From the NCBI RefSeq assembly GCF_000447205.1, contig NZ_AUWY01000047.1, positions 62,001 to 126,000 of the forward strand: 64,000 nucleotides of DNA, read 5' to 3'. This stretch comes from Sphingobium ummariense RL-3. GTDB taxonomy: Bacteria; Pseudomonadota; Alphaproteobacteria; Sphingomonadales; Sphingomonadaceae. Below are positions 9,089-38,520 of this stretch, one piece after another. The notes below the pieces were generated by a model. The model did no database searches. It had not been told where the DNA came from and saw nothing but the letters and a program-made list of their open reading frames with translations. The position numbers were made by a program, and so were the translations under genes. Position 1 is the first letter of the stretch. Every line of letters starts with the position of its first letter.

Positions 9089-11035
<1,947 letters not shown>

Positions 11036-11214
11036 GGGGTCTCTCCTGACTTTTCCGGAGAACATAGGGGCGGGCCCGGCGGGAGGCACCCCCGACCAAA
11101 GTACCAGGGCCCCGCGACCATGGTCCTGCTTCCGCGGTACCCCTCCCGCATCCATGATCGCCCCATCGAACACGGACTCGCGACGACAGCGGGACGGAGA
11201 TGAAGGAGAGCAGG

Positions 11215-12612: not shown

Positions 12613-12633
12613 CCGCATCCCAGGAGAGGACGC

Positions 12634-14301: not shown

Positions 14302-14410
14302 ACAGCCACACGGCGCACCTTTCGACCATCGTCGAATGGCGAAAGATGCGCCCAAGGCCCAGAAAGGAAGAGGAGCGGCGCGGGTTCGGCGCGGCCCGTG
14401 GGAGTAGGTC

Positions 14411-16544: not shown

Positions 16545-16980
16545 GGGGCGATGATCAGGTCGGCGCAGCGATCGTCCTTCCCGCGCACCATTACCTCGTC
16601 GCGGACGCGGGCCTTTTCGGCTTCGGGGGTGAAGCGGTCAGCATAGACGACGGTGGTGCCATGCTCGCCCTTGCGGACGTAGCCGCCAGCCTTCAGCGCC
16701 TACTTGAAGGTCAGTCAGCCCTGCGAGGGATAGCCATGTTCGATCACCGCGCCCCACAGGATCAGGACATTGACCCCGAATAGCGCCGTGCGGTGAGCGC
16801 ATTGCGCGGCAGGCCCGGACCGATCGCGCTGCTGCCCGCATCTGGCTGACCCCAAGGCTGAACCCACGGGAAGCGGCCCGCCTCAAGCTCGCCGATGATC
16901 CGCGTCGTCACCTCGTCATAAAGGTTTGCGCGGTTCGTCTCGCCCCTGTCGTCTTCCGTTCGTGTCTCAGCCGAAAACCG
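16545..16980 (-). pseudogene. ardC-like antirestriction gene, frameshifted relic
   Basis: Reading the minus strand gives the start of an ArdC-type protein: LYDEVTTRIIGELEAGRFPW, then VQPWG and GLPRNALTARRYSG. The frame then breaks near 16770. In the next frame VNVLILWGAVIEHGYPSQG is followed by a stop, LTF, another stop, and then ALKAGGYVRKGEHGTTVVYA and DRFTPEAEKARV. This order matches the N-terminal ssDNA-binding region of ArdC/DUF1738 proteins carried by plasmids and ICEs. One frameshift and two in-frame stops show it is dead. The rest of the protein is missing beyond about 16,545, and I cannot assign the sequence between 16,300 and 16,540. It marks former plasmid or ICE DNA right behind prpE. 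Confidence 0.75.
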
Positions 16981-17084
16981 GCTGTCCACCCTTGTTCGCT
17001 TGGAGTTTCCGACCCTTACCGGTCGCGCGATGGCCAGTGGAAGCACGCATCGTCCATCTCCTCAAAACCGCCCCAAAACCACCA

Positions 17085-17493: not shown

Positions 17494-19017
17494 TCATAGA
17501 GGGTCTGGACGTAGGCGCACGCATTGAAACCGCTTTCCTGTCGCAACAGCGGCTTTGGGGTACGGACAAAGTGGCATGGTCTCGGATTTTCGAGACGCGG
17601 TCACAGCCTGCGGTGGAGACGAATGCTCGACCCAATTCACCAGTGAATCCAGGAGATCGAAGCGGTCGAACGCATTTCCCCCGCTGCAGTGGCCCATGCC
17701 CGGCACAAGGTACAGCCGCGCGGCACTTCCCCATTTGTCGGGTCCGCCATTCGCTGCCTGCGCGCGCTCAAACCATCCAACCGTGTCCCATGCCGAAAAC
17801 CACGGATCACTTACACCATGATAGAGAATGAGTTTGCCCCCATGACCCAGAAATGAGCTGAGGTTTGTCCACGGCCAGCTATCAACCAGCCGCTGATTCG
17901 CATCGTCCTGCACCTTCTGCCAAAGCGCATCCACATCGATGCTCATATCGCGACGTGGCGGGCCGAGCGGCCCAGGCTTGGCGCTTGGGAGGAAGCCCGA
18001 GATAGGATCCGACTCCGCTACGATGCCCGTGTCGTAGGGAAAGCCAGGATAGATTTGCGCGCCGGTGATGCTACGAGGGCCAGCGAAGGCGAACTGCAGT
18101 GCGTGGACCTGCTCCTTGGAAAGACAATCCGCTGTTTTCGCGCCGCTACAAGCAAGTATGGCAGGATCAAAACGGCATCCCACAGGATCGGCAATGATCC
18201 CATCCTCGCGCCCGTCGCGACCGTCGCAGGCAGCAAGCAGCGCGCGGAGTATCAGCGCCTTGTCGGCGGGCGGGAAGGCCATGTAAGTGATCGGCATTCC
18301 CCCTGCATCGCGTGGCGCGATCCGGTTGAAGGCGACCTGCGCGTTGGCCAAGGCCAGATTGGAATGCCCCGTACGCATTGCAGGCGCGCCGGCGATGATG
18401 CCATCGAACGCGTCCGGAAAGCGCTGCGCCGCTATCATCGCCTCTTTCCCGCCGGTCGAACAACCGGCGAAATAGCTGCGGGCGGCAGCCCGACCATAGC
18501 GCAGCACGATCAGCCGTTTTGCGGCATCTGCCACACGTCCCAGCGCGGCATAGGCAAAATCAAGGCTGGCCCGTTGGTCCTCGCGGAAGGATGCGTCGAA
18601 ATTCGCACCTTTGTGTCCGCTGTCGGTTGATGCAACTGCAAATCCTCGTGCCAGCGCTGGATTGCCACCTGCCGCAATGTTCCCGGTCGCAGGCCGAACC
18701 ACGCCATTGAGCCCGCCGCCGCCCTGGAAAAGGAAACGCTCATTCCAGTCGTTCGGGAGCGCGACCTCGAAACCGATGCCATAGGGCTTGCCGCCCACAC
18801 CCACACGCTGGTCAATCATGCCGCGAATCCGGCAGTAGCCAGGCAGCGCGGGTTCAGTACCTTGCGCGGTTCGCTCCGCCACCGGCGTGGCCTCTGTGAC
18901 CTGGACGCTATCGCCGAGTTCCGCGTCGGCAAGACTTGCGCAGGGAATCTCCTTTGCAAAGGCACGTGCAGGGCTGCACGCCAGCAAGATTGACAAGGCG
19001 ACCAACCATCTGCGCAT
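17494..19017 (-). CDS. Tannase/feruloyl-esterase family protein, secreted
   Basis: This 507-residue protein has a signal peptide (LVALSILLACSPARAFA) and the tannase-family fold. The nucleophile serine sits in GCSTGGKEAM, and two nearby cysteines (ASLADAELG region; GC-S) are those that normally form the disulfide next to the catalytic site. The catalytic histidine is in VPGMGHCSGGNAFD and the acidic partner in LILYHGVSDPWFS. The family hydrolyses esters of phenolic acids, including gallate and ferulate esters of sugars or hydroxy acids. It is the last gene of a leftward operon, 22 bases behind the aconitase X small subunit. The hydroxycinnamate operon starting at 29.9 kb makes a feruloyl or caffeoyl ester a plausible substrate; this is inference. 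It acts in the periplasm or is anchored outside. Confidence 0.85.
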   Translation of the reverse strand: MRRWLVALSILLACSPARAFAKEIPCASLADAELGDSVQVTEATPVAERTAQGTEPALPGYCRIRGMIDQRVGVGGKPYGIGFEVALPNDWNERFLFQGGGGLNGVVRPATGNIAAGGNPALARGFAVASTDSGHKGANFDASFREDQRASLDFAYAALGRVADAAKRLIVLRYGRAAARSYFAGCSTGGKEAMIAAQRFPDAFDGIIAGAPAMRTGHSNLALANAQVAFNRIAPRDAGGMPITYMAFPPADKALILRALLAACDGRDGREDGIIADPVGCRFDPAILACSGAKTADCLSKEQVHALQFAFAGPRSITGAQIYPGFPYDTGIVAESDPISGFLPSAKPGPLGPPRRDMSIDVDALWQKVQDDANQRLVDSWPWTNLSSFLGHGGKLILYHGVSDPWFSAWDTVGWFERAQAANGGPDKWGSAARLYLVPGMGHCSGGNAFDRFDLLDSLVNWVEHSSPPQAVTASRKSETMPLCPYPKAAVATGKRFQCVRLRPDPL

Positions 19018-19039
19018 GTCGCGCTCTCCTAAAAGGGTC

Positions 19040-19480
19040 TCAAACGCTGAACTTCCAAATCGTCACGGTTCCGGCGTCGCCGTCGACGCGTACCCTGTCA
19101 CCTGTATCGATCAACTCGAGCGGATCGCGGTCCAGTTCTGTAACGCTCGGCACGCGCATCACGACTGCACCCAGCGCGACCTTCGTGGTCATGACGTTGA
19201 AGACGAGCGCGAGCGGAGCAGTGCCGGCCAGCCGCGTGGTGTGAAATATGGACGACCAGCCGGACGATCCCTTGGCACCGGGGAAGACGAGTATCTTGCC
19301 CGCGAAACTCTGGCCTCTTAGCTCATGGCGGCTCTCGATGATCGTGCCGGACATCGGCGCGACGCCGCCCCAGCCCGAGATCGTCTCTCGCGTGACGAGG
19401 GCCTCGCCTTCCGCGACGCCCGGCACGATACCGCGACCCCGCAAGGTGATTGGCGCATCGATGAAGACAGCGTCATTCAT
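19040..19480 (-). CDS. Aconitase X swivel-domain (small) subunit
   Basis: This 146-residue protein matches the aconitase X swivel domain (DUF126). It contains GRGIVPGVAEGEALVTRETI, then ISGWGGV, GTIIESRHELRGQSFAGKIL and FPGAKGSSGWSSIFH. It swings over the catalytic subunit to close the active site. The start at 19480 overlaps the large-subunit stop by four bases (ATGA), so translation is coupled, as expected for subunits of one enzyme. The frame is open further upstream but lies inside the partner gene. In proteobacteria two-subunit aconitase X enzymes include cis-3-hydroxy-L-proline dehydratases. No proline racemase or related gene is present here, so another hydroxy-acid substrate is possible. 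Confidence 0.88.
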   Translation of the reverse strand: MNDAVFIDAPITLRGRGIVPGVAEGEALVTRETISGWGGVAPMSGTIIESRHELRGQSFAGKILVFPGAKGSSGWSSIFHTTRLAGTAPLALVFNVMTTKVALGAVVMRVPSVTELDRDPLELIDTGDRVRVDGDAGTVTIWKFSV

Positions 19481-20766
19481 ACCAGCGCCCCGCGCCATTG
19501 TCCGGTGCATGCGGCATCGATGCACTGGGCGGTCGTGCCGTACCATCCTTCCAACCCCATGATAGCCGGGAGATAATGCACTTGCTTGGCGCTATCGACG
19601 GCGACGACCCGCGTGCCCGCAGGCACCGCCTGGCTGATCGAGGAACAGGTGTCGGTCATCAGCCGCGCTCCGGCTCTTGACAGGATGGCGGTGTAGCCGC
19701 TGGCATCGGCGGTGGCTTTCACCGCACGACTGGTGAAAATCCATAGCGCCGAATTTGCCGAAACCCGCCTGCCTTCGATTAACCGCGCCGCCTGTGCGAT
19801 TTGTTCGATGGAGTAGTGCGGACAGCCGAGCATCACGAAGTCGACGACCATCGACCGGCCAAGTGCGTTCAACGCGGCATATGTCTCGGCCCGCGCAGTG
19901 CTGTCATAAACGAAAGTCTCACCGCGAGGGCGGCCGCCGAACGCCTGCTCGCTGCTCCTTGCTTCCGGCGTTATGCCGACCATGTGGTACATCTCAACCC
20001 CGCCGGAAGAGGCGGCAGCCGCACCGAAATGCTTGTGCCGAATGAGATTGGGCGGGCCAATGTGGCCGTCGAGGACGGGAATGGCATCTTGTACCGCAAT
20101 GCCGACATAATAGCCGAGCATGCCCCACTCGAAGATGTCGTCCACCGGCACATCCACCTGCACCCGGTGCTGGCCGCGACGAAATTCGTCCCGGTGGAAG
20201 CCCCAGTCTGGAATGCGTTTGGCCAGCATGGCAGCGCTGGTCGATTCGCGCCCTTCACAGTTGGTGCGGGCGCCGACGACTGAGTTGCAATAGACGACTG
20301 CGGAGCTTTCCATCCAGGCGCAATGCTCCCCCATCACCGGCACATTGCCGGCAAGATATGGGGTGCAGGTCTTCAGCACCTGTATGCCGTGCCCGGCGAC
20401 CTGCGCTTCATCGCTGGCAAAGTTGGCATGCGCTTCGGCGGAGAAGCCCTGCTCGGCCCAAAGTTCGGGGTCCATTCCGCCCTGCAAATGGCATGAGAAG
20501 GCGTTCACGCGCGGCACGTCCACCACTTCGTCGGAATCAAGGTCGTAGCGGGAGAACACGGCGCGATAGTCGCCGCCATCGGCAGCATAATATTGCTTGA
20601 TCCAGGGGGTGGACGAACCGGGCACACCGGCGACATTGTCGGTCTCGACGAAACGGTCAGCGCCCAGCGCATCGGCGTAGCGCACCAGAAGCTCTATCGC
20701 CTTCTGCACGGCCGCCCCATCGGACCCGTCGAGCATGGCGCGCTCCTGATCGGTCAGCGCCACCAT
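19477..20766 (-). CDS. Aconitase X catalytic (large) subunit
   Basis: This 429-residue protein is the aconitase X catalytic subunit (DUF521). Candidate ligand or active-site cysteines are in LKTCTPYLAGNVPVMGEHCA, GARTNCEGRES and MTDTCSSISQAVP, as in the family. Other family segments are FSCHLQGGMDPE, VMLGCPHYSIEQI and SANSALWIFTSR. Enzymes of this group are Fe-S or metal-dependent dehydratases acting on hydroxylated acids: cis-3-hydroxyproline in some bacteria, mevalonate 5-phosphate in archaea. The start overlaps the MarR gene stop by one base. The pairing with an IlvD/Edd dehydratase, FAD oxidoreductase and esterase in one operon is not one I recognise, so the substrate is open. Confidence 0.88.
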   Translation of the reverse strand: MVALTDQERAMLDGSDGAAVQKAIELLVRYADALGADRFVETDNVAGVPGSSTPWIKQYYAADGGDYRAVFSRYDLDSDEVVDVPRVNAFSCHLQGGMDPELWAEQGFSAEAHANFASDEAQVAGHGIQVLKTCTPYLAGNVPVMGEHCAWMESSAVVYCNSVVGARTNCEGRESTSAAMLAKRIPDWGFHRDEFRRGQHRVQVDVPVDDIFEWGMLGYYVGIAVQDAIPVLDGHIGPPNLIRHKHFGAAAASSGGVEMYHMVGITPEARSSEQAFGGRPRGETFVYDSTARAETYAALNALGRSMVVDFVMLGCPHYSIEQIAQAARLIEGRRVSANSALWIFTSRAVKATADASGYTAILSRAGARLMTDTCSSISQAVPAGTRVVAVDSAKQVHYLPAIMGLEGWYGTTAQCIDAACTGQWRGALV

Positions 20767-21467
20767 CAGCGCAGCTCATCGAGGCGCAGGATGAGTTGCG
20801 ACAGCACCCGTTGCGTCACCGCCAGATCAGCCGGATCGATGTCCTGCAACACCTCCTCACGAAGCTTGCCGGTGATCGCCTTGATGTCCTCGATCACCTG
20901 TTCTCCAGCCGGCGTGATCGTGTTGATCGTCACGCGCCGATCGATTTTGCTCTGTTCGCGCGTGACCAGCCCGTCCTGTTCAAGCAGGTGGAGCATCCGC
21001 ACCATCGTTGGACCTTCTATCCCGACCAGATTGGCCAGCTCTGACACTGACAACTCATGGCCAGAGAAGGCGACCAAAAACAATGTTTCCCACCGCGCCA
21101 TCGACTGGCCGATCGCGCGTACGCGCTCATTGGCGATTTTGCGCCAGCGTCGCGCGGCCGTGACGAGAGCGCGGGTGAGACGAAAATGCTCACCCGCATG
21201 CGACCCGCTCTCATAAGTCGCGTAATAGCGTTGCAGCGAAACCTCAGGCGAATAGCGCTGCTCGTCGTTACGATCCTTCGCGGCTATGCGGCGTGCCTGG
21301 ATCGTCAGCGGATCGAGCGCGTTCGGGTCGGCGGACTTACGGCCCCGCGTGGGGCGAAGCGGCTTGGTGCTCATTGCGCTCGTCTCCGTTGCAACATCCT
21401 CTGCATCTTGGGGAGCATAGACTCCTGCAGCGGCCTCGGACAACGGCGCGAGATCGTCGAGACTCAT
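20766..21467 (-). CDS. MarR-family transcriptional regulator with N-terminal extension
   Basis: This 233-residue protein has a MarR winged-helix domain in its C-terminal two thirds: ELSVSELANLVGIEGPTMVR, LLEQDGLVTREQSKIDRRV and TITPAGEQVIEDI. The first 75 residues are polar and probably disordered (TKPLRPTRGRKSADPNA). An internal ATG at 21374 would give a shorter form. The long start is favoured because its ATG overlaps the dehydratase stop by four bases. The gene lies inside the eight-gene leftward operon and is a good candidate to regulate it. The inverted repeat at 28,828-28,853 upstream of the TonB receptor is a likely target, but the other MarR protein at 29.3 kb could also bind there. 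The ligand is unknown. Confidence 0.88.
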   Translation of the reverse strand: MSLDDLAPLSEAAAGVYAPQDAEDVATETSAMSTKPLRPTRGRKSADPNALDPLTIQARRIAAKDRNDEQRYSPEVSLQRYYATYESGSHAGEHFRLTRALVTAARRWRKIANERVRAIGQSMARWETLFLVAFSGHELSVSELANLVGIEGPTMVRMLHLLEQDGLVTREQSKIDRRVTINTITPAGEQVIEDIKAITGKLREEVLQDIDPADLAVTQRVLSQLILRLDELR

Positions 21468-23128
21468 TTGCTCACCGTCAGAACGGCTCCAGCGGACTGC
21501 GGACGGACATCGCGGCGGTAGATGCCGAGCCAGCCGGGTGCTTCCACCGCGTCCATCGTCGGCAAGCTGGGGCGCGAGGCCAGTTCTTCTGCGTCAATAT
21601 CGACATCGATGCGGCGCGTGGGCACATCAATCACAATCCAGTCGCCATCGCGCACCCTGCCAATCGCCCCGCCTTCTGCCGCCTCCGGCGAGACCTCGGC
21701 GATGGTCAAGCCCTTGAGGCAGAGACCGGAAAGCTGGCCGTCCGTGATGAAGGCGGTGTCGCGGGCGAGCCCGGCGGCGTCGATTGCGAACAGAACGGTG
21801 GATGCGCCGCCGCCCATCGCGGGACCGCCTTTCACGCCCTGGCCGCGGAGGACGACGACATGGCCGGGCTTCACTTCGCCCCCAGAGATCGCAGCCAGTG
21901 CATCCGCAGAACTGTCAAACGTAATTGCGGGGCCAGAAAAGCTTTCTGGTCGCTTCCCATCGGGGATGCCGAGCTTGACGACGGCGCTGTCCATAGCGAG
22001 GGAGCCTTTGAGAATGGCGATAGCTGGGCCTGGCGCAATCGGGCGCTCGCGGGGACGAATGATTTCTTCGTCAGCTTGCGCGTCCCGAATGTTCTGCCCG
22101 ATTGTGGCGCCAGTGCATGTGAGGGCGTCGCCATCGATGAGATCGCCCAATTGCCTCAACATCGCTGCCGCGCCCCCGGCATCCTCGAACTGCTCGATAC
22201 GAACGGTGCCGTTCGGCCGCACCGCGCTGAGAATGGGCACGTTTGATTTCTCTTCCCAAACCGCGAACATATCGAGGTCCAATCCGCCTTCAACGGCGGT
22301 CGCCTGAAGATGCTTGATGGCGTTGATTGATCCCGACACGGCCTGCACCATCGCAGCTGCGTTGCAAAAAGCGGAAGGGGTCATGATCTGACGGGGGCGA
22401 AGATCCTCCCGCACCATCTCGACGATGCGCGCGCCACTGCGGCGGGCTGAGTCGAACATCTTTTCGCTGTTGGCGCGCACCGGGGCCGAACCCGGCAGGC
22501 ACATGCCGAGCGCTTCGACCACGCAGTGCATGGTATTGGCCGTCGCCATGCCCGCACAGACACCGGGGCCGCGCACGGCGTTGGCCGTGATGTCAGACAG
22601 GCTGTGCCGGCCCGGCTTGCCGAAGCGGTCTCCGACCATTCCTGCGAACAGGTCCTCAATGTCGACCGGATCGCCCTCGATCTCGCCCGAAGCCTGATAA
22701 CCGCCAATCACCAGCAGGGTCGGTATGTCGAGCCGCATCGCCGCCATGAGGTGTCCGGGCGGTGTCTTGTCACAAGAGGTCAGGCAAATCATGCCGTCGA
22801 GCAATGCGGCCTCTACCTGGGCCTCGATATCGTTCGGTATGAGGTCGCGCGCTCCGAGGATATAGGAGCCCATCCGCGCCGCGCCGGTAATGAAGTCGCT
22901 TGGCGCAGTGGTGCGCACCTCAAACGGGATACCGCCGGCGGCTCGGACCGCATCCTTAACCACCCTCGCGACGCCGTCGAGATGCGCGTAGCAGACGGCA
23001 AGCTCGGACGAGGTGTTCACGACCGCAATCTTGGGCTTTAGCATGTCCTCATCGGTCAGGCCGAGCGCACGCCAGTGCGCACGGCGGACGGCAGAGGTGA
23101 CGGAAAGGCTGCGTAATTGGGCGGGCAT
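21464..23128 (-). CDS. IlvD/Edd-family dehydratase
   Basis: The protein of about 554 residues belongs to the dihydroxy-acid/6-phosphogluconate/sugar-acid dehydratase family. Conserved points are NTSSELAVCYAHL, SCDKTPPGHLMAAMRLDI and GPGVCAGMATANTMH, whose cysteines would hold the Fe-S cluster, GQNIRDAQADEEIIRP, and the catalytic serine in ITDGQLSGLCLKGL followed by EVSPEAAEGG. These enzymes remove water from 2,3-dihydroxy or sugar acids to give 2-keto-3-deoxy acids. The operon contains no other branched-chain amino acid gene, so a catabolic sugar-acid or polyhydroxy-acid substrate is more likely than IlvD function. I chose the ATG at 23128 (MPAQLRSLSVTSAVRR) with ACGGAG upstream. A frame further upstream lies inside the permease gene. 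Confidence 0.88.
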   Translation of the reverse strand: MPAQLRSLSVTSAVRRAHWRALGLTDEDMLKPKIAVVNTSSELAVCYAHLDGVARVVKDAVRAAGGIPFEVRTTAPSDFITGAARMGSYILGARDLIPNDIEAQVEAALLDGMICLTSCDKTPPGHLMAAMRLDIPTLLVIGGYQASGEIEGDPVDIEDLFAGMVGDRFGKPGRHSLSDITANAVRGPGVCAGMATANTMHCVVEALGMCLPGSAPVRANSEKMFDSARRSGARIVEMVREDLRPRQIMTPSAFCNAAAMVQAVSGSINAIKHLQATAVEGGLDLDMFAVWEEKSNVPILSAVRPNGTVRIEQFEDAGGAAAMLRQLGDLIDGDALTCTGATIGQNIRDAQADEEIIRPRERPIAPGPAIAILKGSLAMDSAVVKLGIPDGKRPESFSGPAITFDSSADALAAISGGEVKPGHVVVLRGQGVKGGPAMGGGASTVLFAIDAAGLARDTAFITDGQLSGLCLKGLTIAEVSPEAAEGGAIGRVRDGDWIVIDVPTRRIDVDIDAEELASRPSLPTMDAVEAPGWLGIYRRDVRPQSAGAVLTVSK

Positions 23129-23145
23129 AATGGGGCTCCGTGACG

Positions 23146-24519
23146 TCAGGATGCCGGAAGGGCATCGGGAAGGGGCAGGGTGGAGGGAAGACGGCGGCGC
23201 CGTACGATCAGGCCGATGCCGATGGCGCAGCCGGCAAGTATGGCTGGGCAAATCGCCAGGAAGGCAAAACTGCGCACGGCGGGCAGGCCGCTGGCCAAGA
23301 CCATCGCGCCAAGAATTGGCCCTGCGATACCGCCAATCTTGGCAATCGACGTGGCCCAGCCTGCCCCGTTGGCACGGATCGAACTGGCGTAGAAGACGCC
23401 GGCGATGCTGAGGATGCCAAAATGCTCCCCGCCCACGATCGAAGTCGCCGCGATCGAAAGCGGCAGGAAAACGCCGGATGACATGTCGACGAGGCCCAGC
23501 ACAAGCAGGAGAGGAAAAGCGATCAGGGGGTAGGCGGCGATCGCAAATGGCCCCTTGCCGTCAGTAAATCGCATGAGAAGGAGGCCCAGGCCTGCCCCGG
23601 CGATGCCCGAAATGGATGCTGCGTAGGCCGCGACATCGCGCTTGAAGCCCAGTTCCTCATAGACCAGCGGCCCCCAGTTGGACTTGAAATACACCGCCAG
23701 CGTGCTGGCGATGTAGCCCAACCAGAGGAGTGGGGTCAGCCAGCGCAGGTCACCTTCGAAAAGGCTGCTGACGCGAAACGATCGCTCGTCGATCTTCTCG
23801 TCGCCAAGCACGAAACGGTCGTCGGGACTGGCCCGGAGCGTCGGATCCACCCAGTTGAGCGTGGCAGCGATCGTCCCGTGCCGCATTTGCTTGCTGACTA
23901 GGAAGCGGACGGATTCCGGCAGGAAGAACAACAGGAATGCCGCGCAGACCAGCGTTGCGGCGCCGCCGAACATGAAGACGCCTTCCCACCCATAATGCGG
24001 CGCCAGCCAGACCGTGACCGGACCTGCCATCGCTGTACCCAGGCTGTACCCCATCATGATGACCGTCACGACCGTCGAGCGCATCCGTGTCGGCACGAAC
24101 TCGATGTTCAGCGCCCATGCTAGCGGCAACATCCCGCCGATCGCAAAGCCATCCACGAAACGCAGCAGCAACAGCGCTTCGTAGCTGCGCGCGAACGCAG
24201 TGAGGAACGTCAGAACCCCGAAGGCGAAAGCGGCGGCGACGATCGTCCGCCGCCGCCCGATCCGATCGCCGACATAGGCGAGCGCGAAGCCGCCCACCAT
24301 CATCCCGAACAGTCCCGCCGAGAAGATGTTGCCGAGCATCATCTTATCCAGCCCCAGTTCGTCGCGCATGTAGGGCGCGGTGAAGCTGATCATCATCATG
24401 TCGAACCCGTCGAACACGGTGATGAGCCAGGAAAGGGCTATCAGGCGGTAGTTGAAACCGGTCAGGCCCCGCTTGTCGATGAGGGCGGCGACATCAATCG
24501 TGCGGTGCGGGGTCGCCAT
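23146..24519 (-). CDS. MFS permease, aromatic acid:H+ symporter-like
   Basis: This 457-residue inner-membrane transporter has twelve predicted helices. The N-terminus has the AAHS pattern: WLITVFDGFDMMMISFTAPY, where the DGFD motif typifies aromatic-acid and related symporters. It continues with the loop motif AYVGDRIGRRRTI and RFVDGFAIGGMLPLAWALN. It lies three bases behind the FAD oxidoreductase stop and 17 bases before the dehydratase start, within the leftward operon. It probably imports the product released by the TonB receptor and esterase route, either a phenolic acid or a hydroxylated organic acid. A second AAHS permease serves the adjacent ferulate operon, so this one may be for the partner acid; that is inference. 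Confidence 0.88.
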   Translation of the reverse strand: MATPHRTIDVAALIDKRGLTGFNYRLIALSWLITVFDGFDMMMISFTAPYMRDELGLDKMMLGNIFSAGLFGMMVGGFALAYVGDRIGRRRTIVAAAFAFGVLTFLTAFARSYEALLLLRFVDGFAIGGMLPLAWALNIEFVPTRMRSTVVTVIMMGYSLGTAMAGPVTVWLAPHYGWEGVFMFGGAATLVCAAFLLFFLPESVRFLVSKQMRHGTIAATLNWVDPTLRASPDDRFVLGDEKIDERSFRVSSLFEGDLRWLTPLLWLGYIASTLAVYFKSNWGPLVYEELGFKRDVAAYAASISGIAGAGLGLLLMRFTDGKGPFAIAAYPLIAFPLLLVLGLVDMSSGVFLPLSIAATSIVGGEHFGILSIAGVFYASSIRANGAGWATSIAKIGGIAGPILGAMVLASGLPAVRSFAFLAICPAILAGCAIGIGLIVRRRRLPSTLPLPDALPAS

Positions 24520-24522
24520 GGA

Positions 24523-25818
24523 TCAATCCTCGATATTATGCCGGATCCGTTGTTTCAGGCTCGCAAGATCCAGTTGGTGAACGCTTCCCGAGCCTGCCAG
24601 GTCGAGCGCGTGTGCGGCAGCCGCTCCCATGGCGATGCATGGACCCATGACCCGAACCGAGGAAAGAGCCGCAGAGTCGGCATCGATGCAGCGGCCGACA
24701 GCCACCACATTGTCGGCGCCCGCCACCAGCAGGGATCGTAGCGGCACCGTGTGGATGTGATCGTCAGGGAAGACTTCCCACACATAGCCCTCGCGATTGT
24801 GATGCTGCTCGAGCGGCCAGGCGCAGCGGGCGATCGCGTCATCAAAGCGCGTTGCTTCTCGCACCTCGTCCGTAGTGAGGTGATGGGTGCCCACGATCCA
24901 GCGCGTCTGACGCACGCCTGGAAGACCGTATGCGCGCACGCTGGCTTTCCCGTAGGCGTCGGGATATTCGGCACGCAGGAAGGCAAGAGTGCGATCGGCT
25001 TGCTCCTTTCCATCGATCTGCTTTTCGGCGGCGTCGAAAGGATCGAGCGGCGTCTCTATGTGGGTCATATTCACCATGGCGACATTGCGCCCCGGATAGC
25101 GCGCCGAAAAACCGTCGCGACGCATCAGCCCGTAGTCCCCACCCTTGTCCCACAAGCGCTGGGAAACATCTTCTCGGGCAGGCAGATTTGCTTCGTCGAA
25201 CCCTTCGATGATAAGCATCTGCGAGCCGTAAATCTGACCGTTCTTATGGACCTGACAGTCGAAGCCTGCATCCCAGGTCAGCGCGGCATCGCCCGTTGCA
25301 TCGACGAAACCAGTGGCCTTGATGCGTACGTCGCCGAAGCGCGTAGCGATATCGAGAGCGATGACGCGGCGACCATCGCGGTGGACATGCCGGATGATAG
25401 CTCCCGTCAGCGGCACCACGCCGGCCCCCACGGCGGTTCGCTCAACCCAGCGGCCAAGCGCCACCTCGTTGTACATGGCGACCTTCATGACCCCACCCTG
25501 CGTGACATGCAGGTCGCCGCTCGCGCCCAGGTCGTGGAGTATCTCGTCGGCGATGCCGTGGGTGAGCTGCCGTCCACCCTGGCCCGAGGTATAGAGGCCG
25601 CAAAACATGCCGATGATCGAATTGACCGCCTGGCCTCCCAGTGTCGGAAGCCCGTCCACTAGAATGACGCTGCGGCCGGCGCGCGCCGCCTCGATAGCGG
25701 CAGAGGCGCCCGATGCGCCCGAACCTACGACACAGATGTCGCATTCGCGCTCGATGATGGCTTCCGCTGCCGTTTTTGCGACGATGCGCGTGTCTGGATC
25801 GAAGGGACGGTCGAGCAT
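24523..25818 (-). CDS. FAD-dependent oxidoreductase (FAD_oxidored type)
   Basis: This 431-residue flavoprotein opens with the dinucleotide-binding motif CDICVVGSGASGASAAIEAA and the family motif LPTLGGQAVNSIIGMFCGLY. Near the C-terminus SLLVAGADNVVAVGRCIDAD, then SALSSVRVMGPCIAMGAAAA, is the second FAD contact typical of this group. No signal peptide is visible, so it should be cytoplasmic. It could oxidise a hydroxyl of the imported acid or reduce an enoate; the sequence does not say which. The gene lies 23 bases behind the TonB receptor and three bases before the permease. Related proteins occur in several catabolic clusters, but I do not recognise this one by name. Confidence 0.85.
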   Translation of the reverse strand: MLDRPFDPDTRIVAKTAAEAIIERECDICVVGSGASGASAAIEAARAGRSVILVDGLPTLGGQAVNSIIGMFCGLYTSGQGGRQLTHGIADEILHDLGASGDLHVTQGGVMKVAMYNEVALGRWVERTAVGAGVVPLTGAIIRHVHRDGRRVIALDIATRFGDVRIKATGFVDATGDAALTWDAGFDCQVHKNGQIYGSQMLIIEGFDEANLPAREDVSQRLWDKGGDYGLMRRDGFSARYPGRNVAMVNMTHIETPLDPFDAAEKQIDGKEQADRTLAFLRAEYPDAYGKASVRAYGLPGVRQTRWIVGTHHLTTDEVREATRFDDAIARCAWPLEQHHNREGYVWEVFPDDHIHTVPLRSLLVAGADNVVAVGRCIDADSAALSSVRVMGPCIAMGAAAAHALDLAGSGSVHQLDLASLKQRIRHNIED

Positions 25819-25841
25819 TGCATTCCTTATCGTTTGTGTCG

Positions 25842-28808
25842 TCAGAAACCGAAGCGGATGCCCGCCTTGTAGGCGCGGCCGACCGGAGAGAAGAGCAGGT
25901 TGTTGCCAACGCCGTTGGCACCGGGCACCAGCGGCGGATCCTTGTCGAACAGGTTGTCGATGCCGAAGAAGAACGTCCCGTTGCGGCCCCCGTCCTTCAG
26001 GAACTCGATCTGCGTCATCAGATCGACATAGATGGCGTCTGGCACCGAATTGATGTTCGAGCTGTTTGTCGCGGCGACGTTGTAGCCCTCCTGATCGGGG
26101 CCAATGAACGAGCTGTTGTAGAAACCGCTCGGAATATAGCGCGCATGGGCCGACACGCTGAGCGCTTCGCGCGACCAGGTCAGCAGGCCGTCGAGGATAT
26201 AGTCGGGCACACCCGGCACAGTGCCGCCGCGAAGCCCGGTCTGGCCGGCCCGGTCGGTTGAACCGGCGCTGTCGCGCGTGATAAGGTTGTTGGTGATCGT
26301 CGCCAAAAGGCGCAGGTCGACATTGCCCATGTCGCCCAGCGGCTGCCGATAAGTCAGCTCCACATCCAGCCCGCGTGTGATGAGCTTGTTCACATTCTGC
26401 TGCGTATCGACGATCCGCGTCAGGATGCCGCTCGCATCGCGAGTGACGAGGTTGCAGAACTCGGTCGCACCTTGGAAACAGCGGTCGACGATAGTCTGTC
26501 CGCCAATATTGCCGATCGCGTCATCGATCTGAATGTCATAATAATCGACGGAGGCACGTAGCCTGCCAAGCAAGCCCCCGCCACGCGGTTGCAGCACCAC
26601 GCCTACCGTCCAGGTGTTTGCCACTTCGGGGACAAGGTTAGGATTGGAACCGGAAAGCACGCGCGGCTGGATCTGCGCGCCCCCGTTCTGACGGTCGTTG
26701 ATAATGCCGAAGCTCTGTGTCGTTGGGCCGAACAGTTCGGCGATATTGGGTGCGCGAATGTCGCGCGATCGCGTGCCGCGGAGCCGCAGCCACTCCACCG
26801 GCTCCCAGACCGCGCCAACCTTCCAGGTCGTGGCGTTAACCGTCGATTGATTGTTGGCCCCCTGTCGATTGTAGTGAGTGCGCCGGACCGCGCCGTTGAG
26901 GCTGAGTTCACGCAGCAGAGTGATATCGTGCGCAAGCGGCAGTTCGGCTTCGACATAGCCTTCGGTCACCTCGACCTTGCCCTGAACCAGCGATCCACCG
27001 CCCTGGAACAGCAGAAGGTTCTGGGAATAGAAATCAGTGTCACCGGTGATCTTATCGCTTCGGAACTCGCCACCGAATGCGACAGAAAGCGGCCCAGCCC
27101 AAAGGTCGATGAGCGTACCGTTGAGATTGCCGACGATCACATGCTCGGTCGTGCGGTTCTTCTGAAACGCGTTTGTGCTTACATAGGCTTGTGCCGCCGG
27201 CGTGGTCAAATTTCCGAAGGGATTGAGAGGTACGCAGCCGGCCGCAGCGGCCCGTGAAGCAGGGTCGGTGTTCAGGCTGCTGAGTGCGCGGCATACGATC
27301 TGACCGGACACAGGATCGCGGACCGCATCGATCGCACGATTGTAATTGCTCGTGATCGAAGCGTTGTAGACCGTGCTATGGAAGTTGTTCCGGCCGAATT
27401 CGTAATAGGCGTCCCAGCTCCATCCATCACTGATTTTACCTTTGATCGACGCCACTGTGCGGAACGTTTCGTTACGGGCAAGGGTGCGGCCGACGCCGAT
27501 GTCGTTGTAGGTGCGGCCCAGCCGGAATGAAGCGATATTGGGGTTTGCGTTGAGGATGCTCCGAATGTTGAGCCTCGGGTCCGGCGATTGCGGCAGTAGG
27601 TCGATGAATGCGTTGTCGCGACGGATGACCGTTTCGGCGTCCTTATATTCGCGCACGCCGTGCCGAGCGCGCAGTCGCCCATAGCTTACGTCGAGAGCGG
27701 CGGTGATATTAGGACTGATATCCCAGGTCAGCCGGGCATAGGCAGCGACACGCTCGGTTGGGGATTTCAAGGGAAGGGCATCGAAATAGCCATTTTCGCC
27801 TTCGCCCTCTCCACCCACCATATAGAGCGAATTGACCGAATTCGCGACAGAGCCAAGGCCTGTCCCATATTGGAAGAAGCGCGCGCTCCCGTCCGGGTTG
27901 AAGGTGATGCCGCGAAGCGGGTCCGTGGCGCTGGAGAAGGCAATCCCGGCCGCGTTGCGGGACGAGTTGATGACGCCTCGCCGTGAAATCGTCGAGGGGC
28001 GGACGCCGGACAGGATGTTGTTCGCGGGGATGTTGGTGATGCCGGGCGGACGACCAAAGTTGAGCGTCTCGGTGGCGCACCATTCCCGCTCGTAGCAGTT
28101 GCCGATGCCGGTGCTCTTTTCATACTCCATGCCTGCTATCAGATGAAGATTGTTGCCAATCTTGGCGCCACCTGCCAGCGAAAGCAGCGTCTGGCGATCA
28201 TCGCCGCGGTCAGTGATGCCGCTCTGAGCCGAGGCCTTGAAGCCCTCGAGCCGACCATTGATGATAAGGTTGACCACGCCTGCCACAGCATCGGAACCAT
28301 AGGCGGCGGACGCGCCACCGGTGACAACTTCTGCCCGCTCGAGCAGCACGCTTGGGATGAGGTTGGTGTCAACCGTACCCTGAAGCGTCGCCGGCACGAA
28401 CCGCTTGCCATCGACCAGCGTCAGCGTGCGAACGGGACCCAAGCCGCGTAAGTCGAGGATGCGCCCCCCAATGTATCCCGTTTCGCTAAGGCCTTGGGAG
28501 GCCGGCCCAGTCGTGGCGCGGAACGAAGGCAGTTCGTTCAGCGCATCACCGATGTTCGTGACGCCGCGCTGTTCAAGGCGATCCGCGCCAACCACGGACA
28601 CCGGTGTAGGAGCCGAAAAGCCGCTGCGCGCAATACGTGATCCGGTAACCACGATGTCGGCAGGGGTTACCGGAGATTCTGCATCGGCAGGGGCGGTGAC
28701 GACCGACTTATCCTCTTGAGATGCCTCCTGTGCCAGCGTCGTCGAGCCGACAAACGCTGCATATGCGGATCCAAGCATCAATGCCGCGCGAGTGACACTT
28801 TTCGCCAT
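25842..28808 (-). CDS. TonB-dependent outer-membrane receptor
   Basis: The 988-residue receptor has a signal peptide (ALMLGSAYAAFVGSTTLAQ), a TonB-box-like region (DIVVTGSRIARSGF) and a plug domain (about residues 65-180: NIGDALNELPSFRATTG, VRTLTLVDGKRFVPATLQGT, AYGSDAVAGVVNLII). A large barrel follows and ends in IRFGF. There is no N-terminal STN signalling domain, so it does not work as a classical transducer. Such receptors in sphingomonads import plant-derived oligomers and aromatics. It is the first gene of the leftward operon and is preceded by an AT-rich inverted repeat. Import of an intact ester, later cut by the tannase-family enzyme, is a reasonable working model. Substrate is not readable from sequence. 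Confidence 0.93.
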   Translation of the reverse strand: MAKSVTRAALMLGSAYAAFVGSTTLAQEASQEDKSVVTAPADAESPVTPADIVVTGSRIARSGFSAPTPVSVVGADRLEQRGVTNIGDALNELPSFRATTGPASQGLSETGYIGGRILDLRGLGPVRTLTLVDGKRFVPATLQGTVDTNLIPSVLLERAEVVTGGASAAYGSDAVAGVVNLIINGRLEGFKASAQSGITDRGDDRQTLLSLAGGAKIGNNLHLIAGMEYEKSTGIGNCYEREWCATETLNFGRPPGITNIPANNILSGVRPSTISRRGVINSSRNAAGIAFSSATDPLRGITFNPDGSARFFQYGTGLGSVANSVNSLYMVGGEGEGENGYFDALPLKSPTERVAAYARLTWDISPNITAALDVSYGRLRARHGVREYKDAETVIRRDNAFIDLLPQSPDPRLNIRSILNANPNIASFRLGRTYNDIGVGRTLARNETFRTVASIKGKISDGWSWDAYYEFGRNNFHSTVYNASITSNYNRAIDAVRDPVSGQIVCRALSSLNTDPASRAAAAGCVPLNPFGNLTTPAAQAYVSTNAFQKNRTTEHVIVGNLNGTLIDLWAGPLSVAFGGEFRSDKITGDTDFYSQNLLLFQGGGSLVQGKVEVTEGYVEAELPLAHDITLLRELSLNGAVRRTHYNRQGANNQSTVNATTWKVGAVWEPVEWLRLRGTRSRDIRAPNIAELFGPTTQSFGIINDRQNGGAQIQPRVLSGSNPNLVPEVANTWTVGVVLQPRGGGLLGRLRASVDYYDIQIDDAIGNIGGQTIVDRCFQGATEFCNLVTRDASGILTRIVDTQQNVNKLITRGLDVELTYRQPLGDMGNVDLRLLATITNNLITRDSAGSTDRAGQTGLRGGTVPGVPDYILDGLLTWSREALSVSAHARYIPSGFYNSSFIGPDQEGYNVAATNSSNINSVPDAIYVDLMTQIEFLKDGGRNGTFFFGIDNLFDKDPPLVPGANGVGNNLLFSPVGRAYKAGIRFGF

Positions 28809-28827: not shown

Positions 28828-28853
28828 TTTATATAGAAAGCATCCTATATAAA
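28828..28853. promoter_or_regulatory. Perfect 9-bp inverted repeat upstream of the TonB-receptor operon
   Basis: The arms TTTATATAG and CTATATAAA are exact reverse complements, separated by eight bases. The site lies 20 bases upstream of the receptor start codon in an AT-rich patch inside GC-rich DNA. Size and symmetry fit a dimeric repressor, most simply the MarR protein encoded in the operon. It could overlap the promoter or its transcription start and would control all eight genes. Confidence 0.7.
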
Positions 28854-28974
28854 TTTCGTGGTGTCAACGTCAGATTTGGCTGGCCATCTCGTTGATCGAA
28901 AGACTTACAAGGAAAGACGCTCCGCCGCGCTCGCGGAGTGGCAATCCATCGCGAGCTAGCCCTCTGCCCTCCCG

Positions 28975-29279
28975 GCCCCAAATGCATCCGGTGGAGACCA
29001 GTTCGCGTTGGACTGACAGAACCGCACCGGCAGATCGTCGAAGGATCGGGCAATGCCGTGATCGCCGAATTTCTCAAGCGGCTGAACGTCCCCATCCACC
29101 GCCTTCTCTTTGAGAGCTTTTACGACGAAAGACGCTTGTGGACCGCCAATGCGGATCATCAGAACATGGTGCGGCTGATCATGGCCGGCGATGCCGATGG
29201 GGCGGAAGCGGCCATACGCAGCCATATCGGCAAGGGTTTCGAAACGCTTTCGAAGATCGAGAGCGAATTTTACAGCTGA
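28975..29279 (+). pseudogene. GntR-family regulator, C-terminal (FCD) fragment
   Basis: The plus-strand frame ending at 29279 reads LTEPHRQIVEGSGNAVIAEF, KRLNVPIHRLLFESF, MVRLIMAGDADGAEAAIRSH and IGKGFETLSKIESEF. This is the last part of an FCD ligand-binding domain of FadR-type GntR regulators (AGDADxAEAAIRxH is the conserved end). The N-terminal DNA-binding domain is absent; the TonB operon promoter takes its place. It is therefore a truncated relic. It may be the remains of an earlier regulator of one of the flanking operons. Exact 5' limit of the homology is uncertain. Confidence 0.65.
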
Positions 29280-29348: not shown

Positions 29349-29807
29349 TCAGCCGCCCTGCTCTGCTCCACCCGCAGCGATCGCAGTCAGCATCGCGCGC
29401 AACGGCCCTTGGTCGCAACCGTTCAATATTTCATCGAAGCGTCGCTCATGCTCGTCCATGATGGCATCGGCGCGGGATCGCATCGCTTCGCCCGCGTCCG
29501 TCAAACTCAGAGCGAGCGAGCGTCCATCGACCGGCGACTTGGCGAGATAGCCCTTTGCGGCCAGTGAGGAGATCAGCGGCGCCATGTTGGCCCGCTTGAT
29601 GCCCAGCACCCTACCCAGATCGCTTTGAATACAGCCTGGATTGGCACCCACAAGGATCAGGATCGTCGCCTCTACGGGCCGAAGTCCGATTTCGGCCAGC
29701 CCCCCTCCCAGATCCGCCATCATGGCGGACGATGCGCGACGCAACAGATAGCCCAGCCGGGATATGATGGGATCATTGAGGGGCGAGGCCAGATTGGATC
29801 GGTCCAT
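29349..29807 (-). CDS. ferC: MarR-family regulator of the hydroxycinnamate operon (FerC-like)
   Basis: The 152-residue protein is a MarR-family winged-helix regulator: LRPVEATILILVGANPGCIQ, SDLGRVLGIKRANMAPLISS, LAAKGYLAKSPVDGRSLALS and LTDAGEAMRSRAD. It is divergent from an aldehyde dehydrogenase-ferB-ferA operon with a perfect palindrome between the two start codons. In Sphingobium sp. SYK-6, FerC is a MarR-type repressor of ferBA that responds to hydroxycinnamoyl-CoA; the same arrangement here supports the name. The start could be GTG at 29810 or ATG at 29807. Ligand identity is inferred from context. Confidence 0.82.
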   Translation of the reverse strand: MDRSNLASPLNDPIISRLGYLLRRASSAMMADLGGGLAEIGLRPVEATILILVGANPGCIQSDLGRVLGIKRANMAPLISSLAAKGYLAKSPVDGRSLALSLTDAGEAMRSRADAIMDEHERRFDEILNGCDQGPLRAMLTAIAAGGAEQGG

Positions 29808-29843
29808 CACCCCGCATTATTGCCGTTGCCCGCCTCAATCAAC

Positions 29844-29864
29844 ATTGCTATGTTTCATAGCAAT
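29844..29864. promoter_or_regulatory. Perfect palindromic operator between ferC-like and aldehyde dehydrogenase genes
   Basis: ATTGCTATG and CATAGCAAT are exact reverse complements separated by TTT. The site lies 36 bases before the MarR start and 16 bases before the dehydrogenase start, overlapping the zone just upstream of its ribosome site (TAAGGAGCGAGG). Position and symmetry fit binding of the MarR protein to repress both directions until a hydroxycinnamoyl-CoA appears. Confidence 0.8.
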
Positions 29865-29880
29865 AATAAGGAGCGAGGAT

Positions 29881-31332
29881 ATGCCTGCATCGGAAATTCA
29901 GCTGATTATCGGCGCCGAATCACGCGCCGGCGCTGCGCAATTCGAGCGCGTCGATCCGGTAACGGGCCAGGTTGCAACGCTTGCCGCCGCAGCCGGTCCG
30001 GACGACGCGATCGCTGCTGTCGATGCCGCCAAGGACGCCTTCCCGCGCTGGTCGGCCATGGGTCCCAACGCCCGCCGTGCGGCGCTGATGAAGGCGGCAG
30101 ATCGGCTGGAAGCGAAGGCTGGCGATTTTGTCGAGGCGATGATGCAGGAAATCGGCGCGACCGAAGGCTGGGCGCGTTTCAACCTGATGCTCTCCGCCTC
30201 CATGGTGCGGGAAGCAGCCGGCCTCACCACCCAGATTGGCGGCGAGGTCATCCCATCCGATAAGCCGGGCTGCATCGCCATGGCGATCCGCGAGCCCGCT
30301 GGGGTGGTGTTGTCCATAGCGCCCTGGAATGCTCCGATCATTCTGGCGACGCGCGCTATCGCGGTGCCGCTCGCCTGCGGCAATACGGTGGTGCTCAAGG
30401 CGTCGGAACAGTGCCCGCGCACCCATGGCCTCATCATACAGGCCTTTGTCGAAGCCGGGCTTGACGGCGGCATCGTCAACCTCATCACCAACGCCCCACA
30501 GGATGCTGCGGAGGTCGTCGGAGCGATGATCGACCATCCGGCTGTCCGTCGCGTCAACTTCACCGGATCGACCGCGGTAGGCAAGATCGTCGCCAAACGC
30601 TGTGCCGAGAGTCTGAAGCCTGTCCTGCTCGAACTGGGCGGCAAGGCGCCGTTGATCGTGCTGGAGGATGCCGATCTCGACGAAGCGGTGAAGGCCGCGG
30701 CCTTCGGCGCCTTCATGAATCAGGGCCAGATCTGCATGTCGACCGAGCGCATCATCGTGGTCGACGCCGTTGCGGATGCATTCGCCGAGAAATTCCAGGT
30801 AAAGGTCGGCACCATGCCGGTCGGCGACCCGCGCGAGGGCAAGACCCCGCTGGGCGCGGTGGTCGACAGCCACACCGTCGCGCATGTGCGATCGCTGATC
30901 GAGGACGCGCTGGCGTCCGGAGCGTGGCAACTGAACGGCGGCGATGCCAACGGTGTGCTGATGCCGGCGCATGTGATCGATGGCGTGACGCCCCAGATGA
31001 AGCTGTTCCAGGACGAAAGCTTCGGTCCGGTGGTCGGCATCGTCCGTGCGCGCGACGAGGCGCATGCCATCGAACTGGCGAACGATACCGAATATGGGCT
31101 GTCGGCATCGGTGTTCACGCGTGACGCCGCGCGGGGCCTGAAGGTGGCGCGCCAGATCCAGTCGGGCATCTGCCACGTCAACGGTCCGACCGTGCATGAC
31201 GAAGCGCAGATGCCCTTCGGCGGCGTCAAGGCGTCGGGCTACGGCAAATTCGGGGGCAAGGCCGGCATCGATAGCTTCACCGAGCTGCGCTGGATCACCA
31301 TCGAAACCGAGCCGGGCCATTACCCGATCTGA
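29881..31332 (+). CDS. Aldehyde dehydrogenase (vanillin/benzaldehyde dehydrogenase type)
   Basis: The 483-residue NAD(P)-dependent aldehyde dehydrogenase contains SIAPWNAPIILATRAIAVPL, VNFTGSTAVGKIVAKR, the general-base Glu in LLELGGKAPLIVLEDADLDE, and the nucleophile Cys in NQGQICMSTERI. The C-terminal DEAQMPFGGVKASGYGKFGG is typical of the vanillin/salicylaldehyde group. With a hydroxycinnamoyl-CoA hydratase/lyase directly downstream, the expected reaction is vanillin (or 4-hydroxybenzaldehyde) to the acid. The start at 29881 follows TAAGGAGCGAGG; the frame is open upstream through the operator and into the divergent gene. It is the first gene of the rightward operon. Confidence 0.88.
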   Translation: MPASEIQLIIGAESRAGAAQFERVDPVTGQVATLAAAAGPDDAIAAVDAAKDAFPRWSAMGPNARRAALMKAADRLEAKAGDFVEAMMQEIGATEGWARFNLMLSASMVREAAGLTTQIGGEVIPSDKPGCIAMAIREPAGVVLSIAPWNAPIILATRAIAVPLACGNTVVLKASEQCPRTHGLIIQAFVEAGLDGGIVNLITNAPQDAAEVVGAMIDHPAVRRVNFTGSTAVGKIVAKRCAESLKPVLLELGGKAPLIVLEDADLDEAVKAAAFGAFMNQGQICMSTERIIVVDAVADAFAEKFQVKVGTMPVGDPREGKTPLGAVVDSHTVAHVRSLIEDALASGAWQLNGGDANGVLMPAHVIDGVTPQMKLFQDESFGPVVGIVRARDEAHAIELANDTEYGLSASVFTRDAARGLKVARQIQSGICHVNGPTVHDEAQMPFGGVKASGYGKFGGKAGIDSFTELRWITIETEPGHYPI

Positions 31333-31356
31333 TCTTCCTGATTTCCGGAGAACAAC

Positions 31357-32217: not shown

Positions 32218-32261
32218 TCGGCCCGCTTGTCCTAGTCGGAAATATATATTCGGGAGAGCCA

Positions 32262-38358: not shown

Positions 38359-38520
38359 GGTATCGGCCCGTCCATAAGGGGCCTTCGATACCATGCAGGA
38401 TACCATATTTGTTCCCGATTGGTGCCGGATCAGCCCGGATTTGACCGGACGACCTTAGCACAAAAAACGTCTGAAATCAGCCACTTTCGGGACGTCCCCG
38501 GACGCTGCCGGAAGAACAAA

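Follow-up and report, generated by a model that had tools for sequence, protein, structure and literature searches.

An operon of Sphingobium ummariense RL-3 that combines a tannase-family esterase with a conserved core of flavoprotein, IlvD/Edd dehydratase and aconitase X

Dehydratases of the IlvD/Edd family convert α,β-dihydroxy acids into 2-keto-3-deoxy acids, and aconitase X (AcnX) removes a β-hydroxyl next to an α-CH. In a study of AcnX (PMC8184944), the carboxylate is bound by Thr63(S), Ser130 and Lys361 and the β-hydroxyl by Glu129 and Lys361; the ring is held by Asp203, Thr72, Trp35 and Ile206 in the proline enzyme, and the phosphate by the backbone of Gly48-Val49-Ser50 and the side chains of Asn53 and Asn79 in the archaeal enzyme (TkAcnX). 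That source also describes AcnX types IIc-f as carrying no landmark residues of either known activity and as awaiting characterisation (PMC8184944). Here we analysed 64,000 nucleotides of Sphingobium ummariense RL-3 (contig NZ_AUWY01000047.1, positions 62,001 to 126,000; the window), which contain an eight-gene operon joining a two-subunit AcnX to an IlvD/Edd dehydratase, a flavoprotein and a tannase-family esterase. The operon is genuine and its enzyme core conserved; no description of it was found in the literature searched. We tentatively read it, with a probability of about 0.4, as serving to take up and degrade an aromatic ester of plant type, the acid half of which would be an α,β-dihydroxy carboxylic acid.

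Organisation of the operon and its protein families

The operon spans positions 17494-28808 of the window, and the coordinates and order of its eight minus-strand genes were verified by open reading frames (ORFs), Pfam and NCBIfam models and junctions. In the order of transcription the genes are:

25842-28808, minus strand: TonB-dependent receptor, 988 aa, first gene of the operon (PF00593 and PF07715)
24523-25818, minus strand: FAD-dependent oxidoreductase, here called type G, 431 aa (PF12831, 248.7 bits)
23146-24519, minus strand: MFS transporter, 457 aa, nearest to the aromatic acid:H+ symporter (AAHS) kind (TIGR00895 the best NCBIfam match)
21464-23128, minus strand: IlvD/Edd-family Fe-S dehydratase, 554 aa, inferred start MPAQLRS (PF00920 and PF24877)
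20766-21467, minus strand: MarR/SlyA-like regulator, 233 aa, with a long N-terminal extension (PF01047)
19477-20766, minus strand: AcnX type-II large subunit, 429 aa (PF04412, 351.5 bits)
19040-19480, minus strand: AcnX small (swivel) subunit, inferred start MNDAVFI (PF01989; match to 7cnr_B at 3.8e-25)
17494-19017, minus strand: tannase/feruloyl-esterase/MHETase-family esterase with a signal-like N-terminus (PF07519, 344 bits)

Going from the first gene to the last, neighbours are separated by 23, 3 and 17 nt, then overlap by 4, 1 and 4 nt and are finally separated by 22 nt, when the inferred starts at 23128 (IlvD) and 19480 (AcnX small subunit) are used; for the latter the mechanical ORF begins at 19546, and MNDAVFI was picked among the candidate starts. 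The junctions thus have the gaps of at most 24 bases and the overlaps of 1-4 bases that the original prediction described. Its view of the genes as one operon of these enzyme families is likewise supported by the ORFs, the Pfam and NCBIfam matches, the spacing and the synteny, and the last two suggest that all eight genes form a single transcript.

The AcnX pair is built as in type II: the catalytic subunit (PF04412) and the swivel subunit (PF01989) are distinct chains. The best solved match of the large subunit is the Thermococcus AcnX, a phosphomevalonate dehydratase (7cnr_A, 7.6e-53), and the cis-3-hydroxyproline dehydratase of Agrobacterium is matched at 8e-40 to 2e-38 (7cnq_A, 1.6e-38). 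The Fe-S and catalytic positions are conserved: Cys134, Cys315, Cys374, Glu153-Ser154-Ser155 and Lys394 align with 7cnr_A and are invariant in 18 aligned sequences of the 55 at hand. All residue readings come from pairwise HMMER alignments, which are trustworthy at motifs and less so in loops.

A cis-3-hydroxy-L-proline enzyme, the alternative that this AcnX homology to 7cnq invites, would also agree with a Trp that takes the place of Trp35 of the Agrobacterium enzyme (AtAcnX) when read through the Thermococcus small subunit. At the other ring positions, however, Asp203, Thr72 and Ile206 of AtAcnX are replaced by Ala46, Gly and Pro49 (pairwise, read through TkAcnX), and the score on the C3LHyp equivalog is 213.6 against a cut-off of 700, although this model describes a fused single chain and is weak evidence alone. 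Moreover, the operon has no proline racemase-like or pyrroline gene, and hydroxyproline would leave its esterase, IlvD and AAHS-like transporter unexplained. The hydroxyproline-like substrate offered as an option in the original prediction is therefore disfavoured by residue changes and gene content alike, and we regard it as extremely improbable. In the phosphate loop of TkAcnX, Gly47 and Val48 of the window protein are kept and Pro49 replaces Ser50. Asn53 and Asn79 fall in an unaligned stretch (77 residues in the window AcnX against 52 in Thermococcus), so that phosphomevalonate activity is less firmly excluded. As judged from these alignments, the window AcnX looks like an uncharacterised type-II AcnX.

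The dehydratase carries both IlvD/Edd Pfam domains over its full length. It scores below the cut-off of the biosynthetic ilvD equivalog TIGR00110 (446.8 against 618.15), and below that of every NCBIfam model listed. A second IlvD encoded in the same genome (contig C123) is 38% identical to it and may be the biosynthetic one. The esterase shows the family score and the Ser-Asp-His stretches of tannases and feruloyl esterases; it matches MHETase at 1.7e-84 with the stretches GCSxGG, HGxSDxxFSAxDT and MxHCSGG aligned, and feruloyl esterases were matched too. It is probably exported; its signal-like N-terminus was judged by eye. The MarR-family protein reaches 67 bits on the SlyA model, below the cut-off of 120.

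Conservation and co-occurrence of the gene set

The same gene order was sought in other sphingomonads and beyond. A pattern scan of one genome per species (84,980 species) gave 54 other loci, several of them cut by contig ends, in which neighbours were counted by tblastn with bit-score limits and ORFs were taken from a codon-usage caller. The AcnX small subunit was found in 52 of the 54 loci, IlvD in 25, the MFS transporter in 24, the TonB receptor in 23 and MarR in 19. The flavoprotein appeared as type G in 18 loci and as type 5 (FAD5) in 17, never as both together; type 5 is a second PF12831 flavoprotein, and the single pair compared showed 25% identity between the two types. A flavoprotein is encoded in 26 of the 38 loci that measure 18 kb or more, and it is the most constant partner of the module.

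The seven-gene set without the esterase (TonB, FAD type G, MFS, IlvD, MarR and both AcnX genes) recurs in six loci (L027, L034, L042, L044, L045 and L072). These are not six independent cases, since five belong to Novosphingobium and one to a metagenome-assembled genome. Another seven loci combine FAD5 with TonB, MFS, IlvD and AcnX (L021, L032, L041, L043, L047, L049 and L064), and relatives of the TonB receptor, 47-62% identical, sit inside AcnX clusters of other sphingomonads.

Outside the sphingomonads the conserved core is smaller. Paroceanicella has LysR, IlvD, FAD and the large and small AcnX genes, with TRAP genes one gene further on the opposite strand; Burkholderia cenocepacia has the order IlvD-MFS-TauD-AcnX large-AcnX small-FAD-MFS, followed by a porin gene; genome G482 has IlvD-AcnX large-AcnX small-FAD-MFS-OprD-MFS. 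FAD and both AcnX genes stand with a solute-binding protein in Bradyrhizobium, and in Halomonas the locus holds FAD, a TAXI-type binding protein, IlvD, AcnX, DctM and TauD. Two Terriglobia have FAD and AcnX together with MFS. Truncated members were also seen: in L073 of Altericroceibacterium spongiae (9800-10786) AcnX is matched only from about residue 166, beside an IlvD fragment, and in L024 (8889-9311) a shortened IlvD has about 140 residues left.

Co-occurrence was assessed in 298 genomes of the family, the window's own included, by scoring the best 4-5 first-look candidates per genome, so that weak negatives are possible; the statistics ignore relatedness and general catabolic richness. 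AcnX was present at E ≤ 1e-30 in 19 of the 298 genomes: 16 close (71-100% identity, one of them, G175, matched over 166-428 only) and three remote (33-50%; G174, G253 and G278). FAD type G was found in 2 genomes, type 5 in 26, the IlvD subfamily in 21 and the esterase or its relatives (44-56% identical) in 27. All 16 close-AcnX genomes carry a flavoprotein of type G or 5, against 1.5 expected (hypergeometric p about 2e-19). By genus the figure is 8 of 8, the flavoprotein being present in 11 of the 96 genera (p about 1e-9). The flavoprotein is missing from the three remote-AcnX genomes. It also accompanies IlvD (20 of 21 genomes; 2.0 expected) and the esterase (23 of 27, 2.5 expected; by genus 8 of 9, 1.0 expected). 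Weaker links join close AcnX to the esterase (12/16) and to IlvD (11/16). Among the six sampled genomes of the window's genus, three (G000, G076 and G144) carry AcnX, FAD and esterase, and the other three (G196, G237 and G273) carry none of them. The seven-gene set kept in six loci and the 16/16 co-occurrence of AcnX with the flavoprotein indicate that the operon is more than a chance assembly.

At five further loci (L134, L135, L137, L140 and L141) FAD5, IlvD and MFS stand together in genomes without an AcnX match, and these may represent a sister module using a related acid. In L126, L127 and L129, two esterase relatives (50-51% and 30%) flank a gene of 411-415 aa.

Candidate substrates

Immediately beyond the operon, on the opposite strand, lies a second unit:

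29764-34424, plus strand: neighbouring hydroxycinnamate operon (aldehyde dehydrogenase, hydratase/lyase, CoA ligase)
29764-31332, plus strand: aldehyde dehydrogenase (PF00171)
31357-32217, plus strand: p-hydroxycinnamoyl-CoA hydratase/lyase, a crotonase (PRK09120, 462.5 bits against a cut-off of 276)
32262-34424, plus strand: ATP-grasp acyl-CoA ligase (PF13549, PF13607)

This unit is a ferulate/coumarate side-chain route, with an aldehyde dehydrogenase that stays under every listed NCBIfam cut-off. In the reading that we favour, the TonB receptor would carry the ester across the outer membrane, the esterase would cut it, and the AAHS-like transporter would bring the acid in. The acid may be tartrate-, threonate-, glycerate- or aldarate-like, or an arylglycerate. 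IlvD would dehydrate the dihydroxy acid at its β-hydroxyl to a 2-keto-3-deoxy acid. AcnX, with Fe-S chemistry of its own, would take a β-hydroxyl off that acid or a stereoisomer of it, and the flavoprotein would oxidise either a hydroxyl of the acid or one of its bonds. The hydroxycinnamate half would pass to the adjacent CoA-ligase/hydratase-lyase/aldehyde dehydrogenase operon.

The original prediction had proposed that a hydroxycinnamate ester is imported and cut and its acid dehydrated twice and oxidised. The hydroxycinnamate link has been strengthened by the PRK09120 enzyme next door and by the co-occurrence of esterase and flavoprotein in 23 of 27 genomes, but two successive dehydrations could not be established: nine family genomes have FAD5 and the IlvD subfamily without AcnX, and 5 of the 16 close-AcnX genomes have no IlvD subfamily member. 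This distribution suggests that the dehydratases may act in parallel, both working on an α,β-dihydroxylated acid and yielding one product. Since both would give the same product, genomes could keep FAD and IlvD, FAD and AcnX, or all three. A single linear three-step route is doubtful.

Several further observations weigh against the favoured reading. None of the 54 other loci has the esterase inside the cluster, as the window does, so that it does not belong to the conserved cluster, and 4 of the 16 close-AcnX genomes have no esterase relative. In 20 of the 26 other genomes with an esterase, among them the FAD-negative G065 and G032, esterase neighbourhoods of 12-19 kb were opened and no relative of AcnX, IlvD, FAD or the ferulate operon was labelled in them; the substrate of the esterase may therefore be a separate one. 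The co-occurrence p-values not only disregard relatedness, they were also obtained without a control gene. Twelve of the 38 loci that reach 18 kb show no flavoprotein, IlvD is not in the Bradyrhizobium loci, and in Sphingobium SYK-6 (G144) the genes are scattered, with AcnX at about 2.98 Mb, FAD5 at about 2.96 and 1.71, IlvD at about 3.95 and an esterase relative at about 0.88. The MFS transporter misses the cut-off of the AAHS model TIGR00895 (299.1 against 418.55 bits), although this is still its best match. Nor could a substrate be derived from the fold of the flavoprotein: with its AlphaFold model (pLDDT 73.9), the first 50 Foldseek matches were generic flavoenzymes, namely monooxygenases, halogenases, reductases, oxidases and thiazole synthase, at query TM values of 0.29-0.48.

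The hydroxycinnamate operon, together with the AAHS-like transporter and MarR, would also suit the aromatic traffic of a chlorogenate route, in which the esterase would free quinate from caffeoyl- or feruloylquinate, and FAD and the two dehydratases would turn it into protocatechuate. The formula balances, as quinate minus 2 H2O and 2 H gives protocatechuate. However, quinate lacks an α-hydrogen and a β-hydroxyl next to the carboxylate, and because the known mechanisms of IlvD and AcnX need both, we set this route as very unlikely; it also leaves the glyoxylate-type neighbours in relatives unexplained.

Those neighbours come from a part of the related loci. In Burkholderia and L099 the module includes a gene for a TfdA-like dioxygenase, and in Halomonas, L022, L037 and L038 it has such a gene as a neighbour; the closest solved relative is 2,4-D dioxygenase (1.2e-67 for the Burkholderia protein, 5.8e-44 for that of L037). 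A gene resembling glyoxylate/hydroxypyruvate reductase adjoins the module in L022 and L037/L038, its best models being below cut-off. L037 in addition has a tartronate-semialdehyde reductase near the module (382 bits against a cut-off of 341) and a 2-oxo-tetronate/hydroxypyruvate isomerase (335 bits against 325, the cut-off for the first of these names). Alcohol-oxidising GMC, SDR and PQQ genes stand near some loci, and in L042 a carboxylesterase gene comes after AcnX. The TfdA-like, reductase and isomerase neighbours suggest that an ester or ether conjugate of a hydroxy acid is opened and that C2-C3 hydroxy-oxo acids are formed.

The main rival draws on the same neighbours and supposes a lignin-type substrate, either an aryl ether or a hydroxy acid with an aryl substituent, for example a 2-aryloxy-3-hydroxypropanoate or an arylglycerate. 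AcnX would dehydrate a β-hydroxy acid, and the TfdA-like dioxygenase of some relatives would cleave the ether into a phenol and glyoxylate or hydroxypyruvate. The TfdA-like genes, the reductases of L022 and L037 and the GMC, SDR and PQQ dehydrogenase genes agree with this, and the lignin specialist SYK-6 has AcnX, FAD5, IlvD and an esterase relative, albeit scattered. On the other hand, the operon contains no known lignin-dimer enzyme, IlvD requires a free α-hydroxyl by its known mechanism, and the module is present in the deep-sea Paroceanicella. The window's genome and G482 have no TfdA-like relative at 1e-30, and elsewhere such relatives are common anyway (17 of 21 genomes at 1e-30). These last two points, and the restriction of the hydroxypyruvate and TfdA hints to subsets of relatives, count against the favoured ester reading as well. 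We consider a lignin-type substrate unlikely.

In SYK-6 a FAD5-TauD pair of another TauD group lies beside a divergent MFS gene, and beside its AcnX genes a separate set (L023, 11897-18427, minus strand) comprises a TonB receptor, an MFS transporter, a thiamine-diphosphate enzyme (PRK06154, above cut-off) and a TauD-family dioxygenase. A gene of cluster c17 (285-292 aa) was found near the reductase-like gene in L021/L064, L022 and L037/L038; three such genes had no NCBIfam match and one no Pfam match. It may encode a D-glycerate kinase, a name that no model matched and that we did not use as evidence. Two of five genomes searched have a c17 relative, the window's own among them (55%). As for individual acids, tartrate alone would fit the dehydratases and hydroxypyruvate reductase but not the retention of three enzymes, and piscidic and fukiic acids, hydroxycitrate, apionate and 3-hydroxy-3-methylglutarate were considered and dropped for lack of evidence.

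A bolder and rather doubtful generalisation is that FAD, IlvD and AcnX make up an undescribed, widespread pathway in which two unrelated Fe-S dehydratases, the AcnX among them belonging to an uncharacterised type-II subclass, would act on stereoisomers of one α,β-dihydroxy or α-oxy-β-hydroxy acid. Its front ends would be exchangeable, with esters entering through a tannase-family esterase and ethers through a TfdA-like dioxygenase, and would feed in plant aromatic conjugates.

Surroundings of the operon and comparison with known systems

The start of the operon is preceded by a candidate regulatory site:

28829-28852, no strand assigned: candidate operator, a perfect 8+8 AT-rich palindrome, TTATATAG-N8-CTATATAA, 20 nt upstream of the TonB start codon

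It is the sole match in the window when up to three mismatches are allowed, and 100 shuffles gave none. MarR is likely the switch of the operon. A shared operator was sought in 213 upstream stretches of module genes, and the palindrome occurred in one, namely the window's own; a promoter and terminator scan gave no more sites than its shuffles. Upstream of the operon, a 113-aa ORF (28938-29279, plus strand) encodes the FCD domain of a GntR-type regulator, apparently a remnant without the DNA-binding half. To the other side, a DcaP-like porin, an MFS transporter and a propionate-CoA-ligase-like enzyme follow one another at 11200-16294 (plus strand), possibly as an organic-acid uptake unit.

The N-terminal fragment of an ArdC-type anti-restriction protein (16762-17046, minus strand), a mobile-element trace, lies just downstream of the operon, and a tyrosine integrase (Arm-DNA-bind_3; 37135-38406, minus strand) about 2.7 kb past the CoA-ligase gene. 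The two may bound a catabolic island of 16.7-38.4 kb. In a further rival explanation, the operon would hold two unrelated functions recently put together on a mobile island, one linked to the esterase and the other an independent acid pathway, and the presence of the esterase within the cluster in the window only fits such an origin, as do the integrase and the ArdC fragment. The occurrence of esterase relatives together with the flavoprotein in 23 of 27 genomes and 8 of 9 genera argues against it, and we find this explanation quite improbable.

The original prediction knew of no described pathway with this enzyme combination, and a literature search agreed with it: no report pairing AcnX with IlvD, SYK-6 or tannase was found, most subscription journals being outside its coverage. 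The cluster gives an AcnX of IIc-f appearance a tight set of partners, namely a flavoprotein, an IlvD, a transporter and an esterase. Its presence in bacteria that are named and sequenced, among them the lignin model Sphingobium SYK-6, makes the AcnX reaction accessible to deletion and assay. If the ester reading is true, the acid half of plant phenolic esters would gain a route that has been missing, and the AcnX family a third reaction.

With type I AcnX, the cis-3-hydroxyproline dehydratase, the window AcnX shares the fold family and the Glu-Ser-Ser and Lys for the carboxylate and β-hydroxyl, but it has two chains, three aligned cluster Cys and changed pyrrolidine-ring residues and stands outside any hydroxyproline gene context. 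Separate subunits and the three Cys liken it to type IIb, the archaeal mevalonate-5-phosphate dehydratase (7cnr/7cns), from which it differs by Pro49 in place of Ser50, whose backbone NH serves the phosphate, by a stretch about 25 residues longer and by its bacterial catabolic operon. The operon's IlvD matches solved dihydroxy-acid and sugar-acid dehydratases over the full length, whereas its model scores and its identity to the second IlvD of the genome set it apart within the IlvD/Edd family. The esterase shares family score and catalytic stretches with the tannase/feruloyl esterase B/MHETase family (PF07519) and differs in being embedded in an AcnX/IlvD operon. Finally, hydroxycinnamate-ester pathways, such as chlorogenate hydrolysis with CoA-dependent side-chain cleavage, resemble this locus in having an esterase close to a hydratase/lyase operon; here, however, the operon has no quinate dehydrogenase-type gene, and the acid half would be met by Fe-S dehydratases and a flavoprotein.

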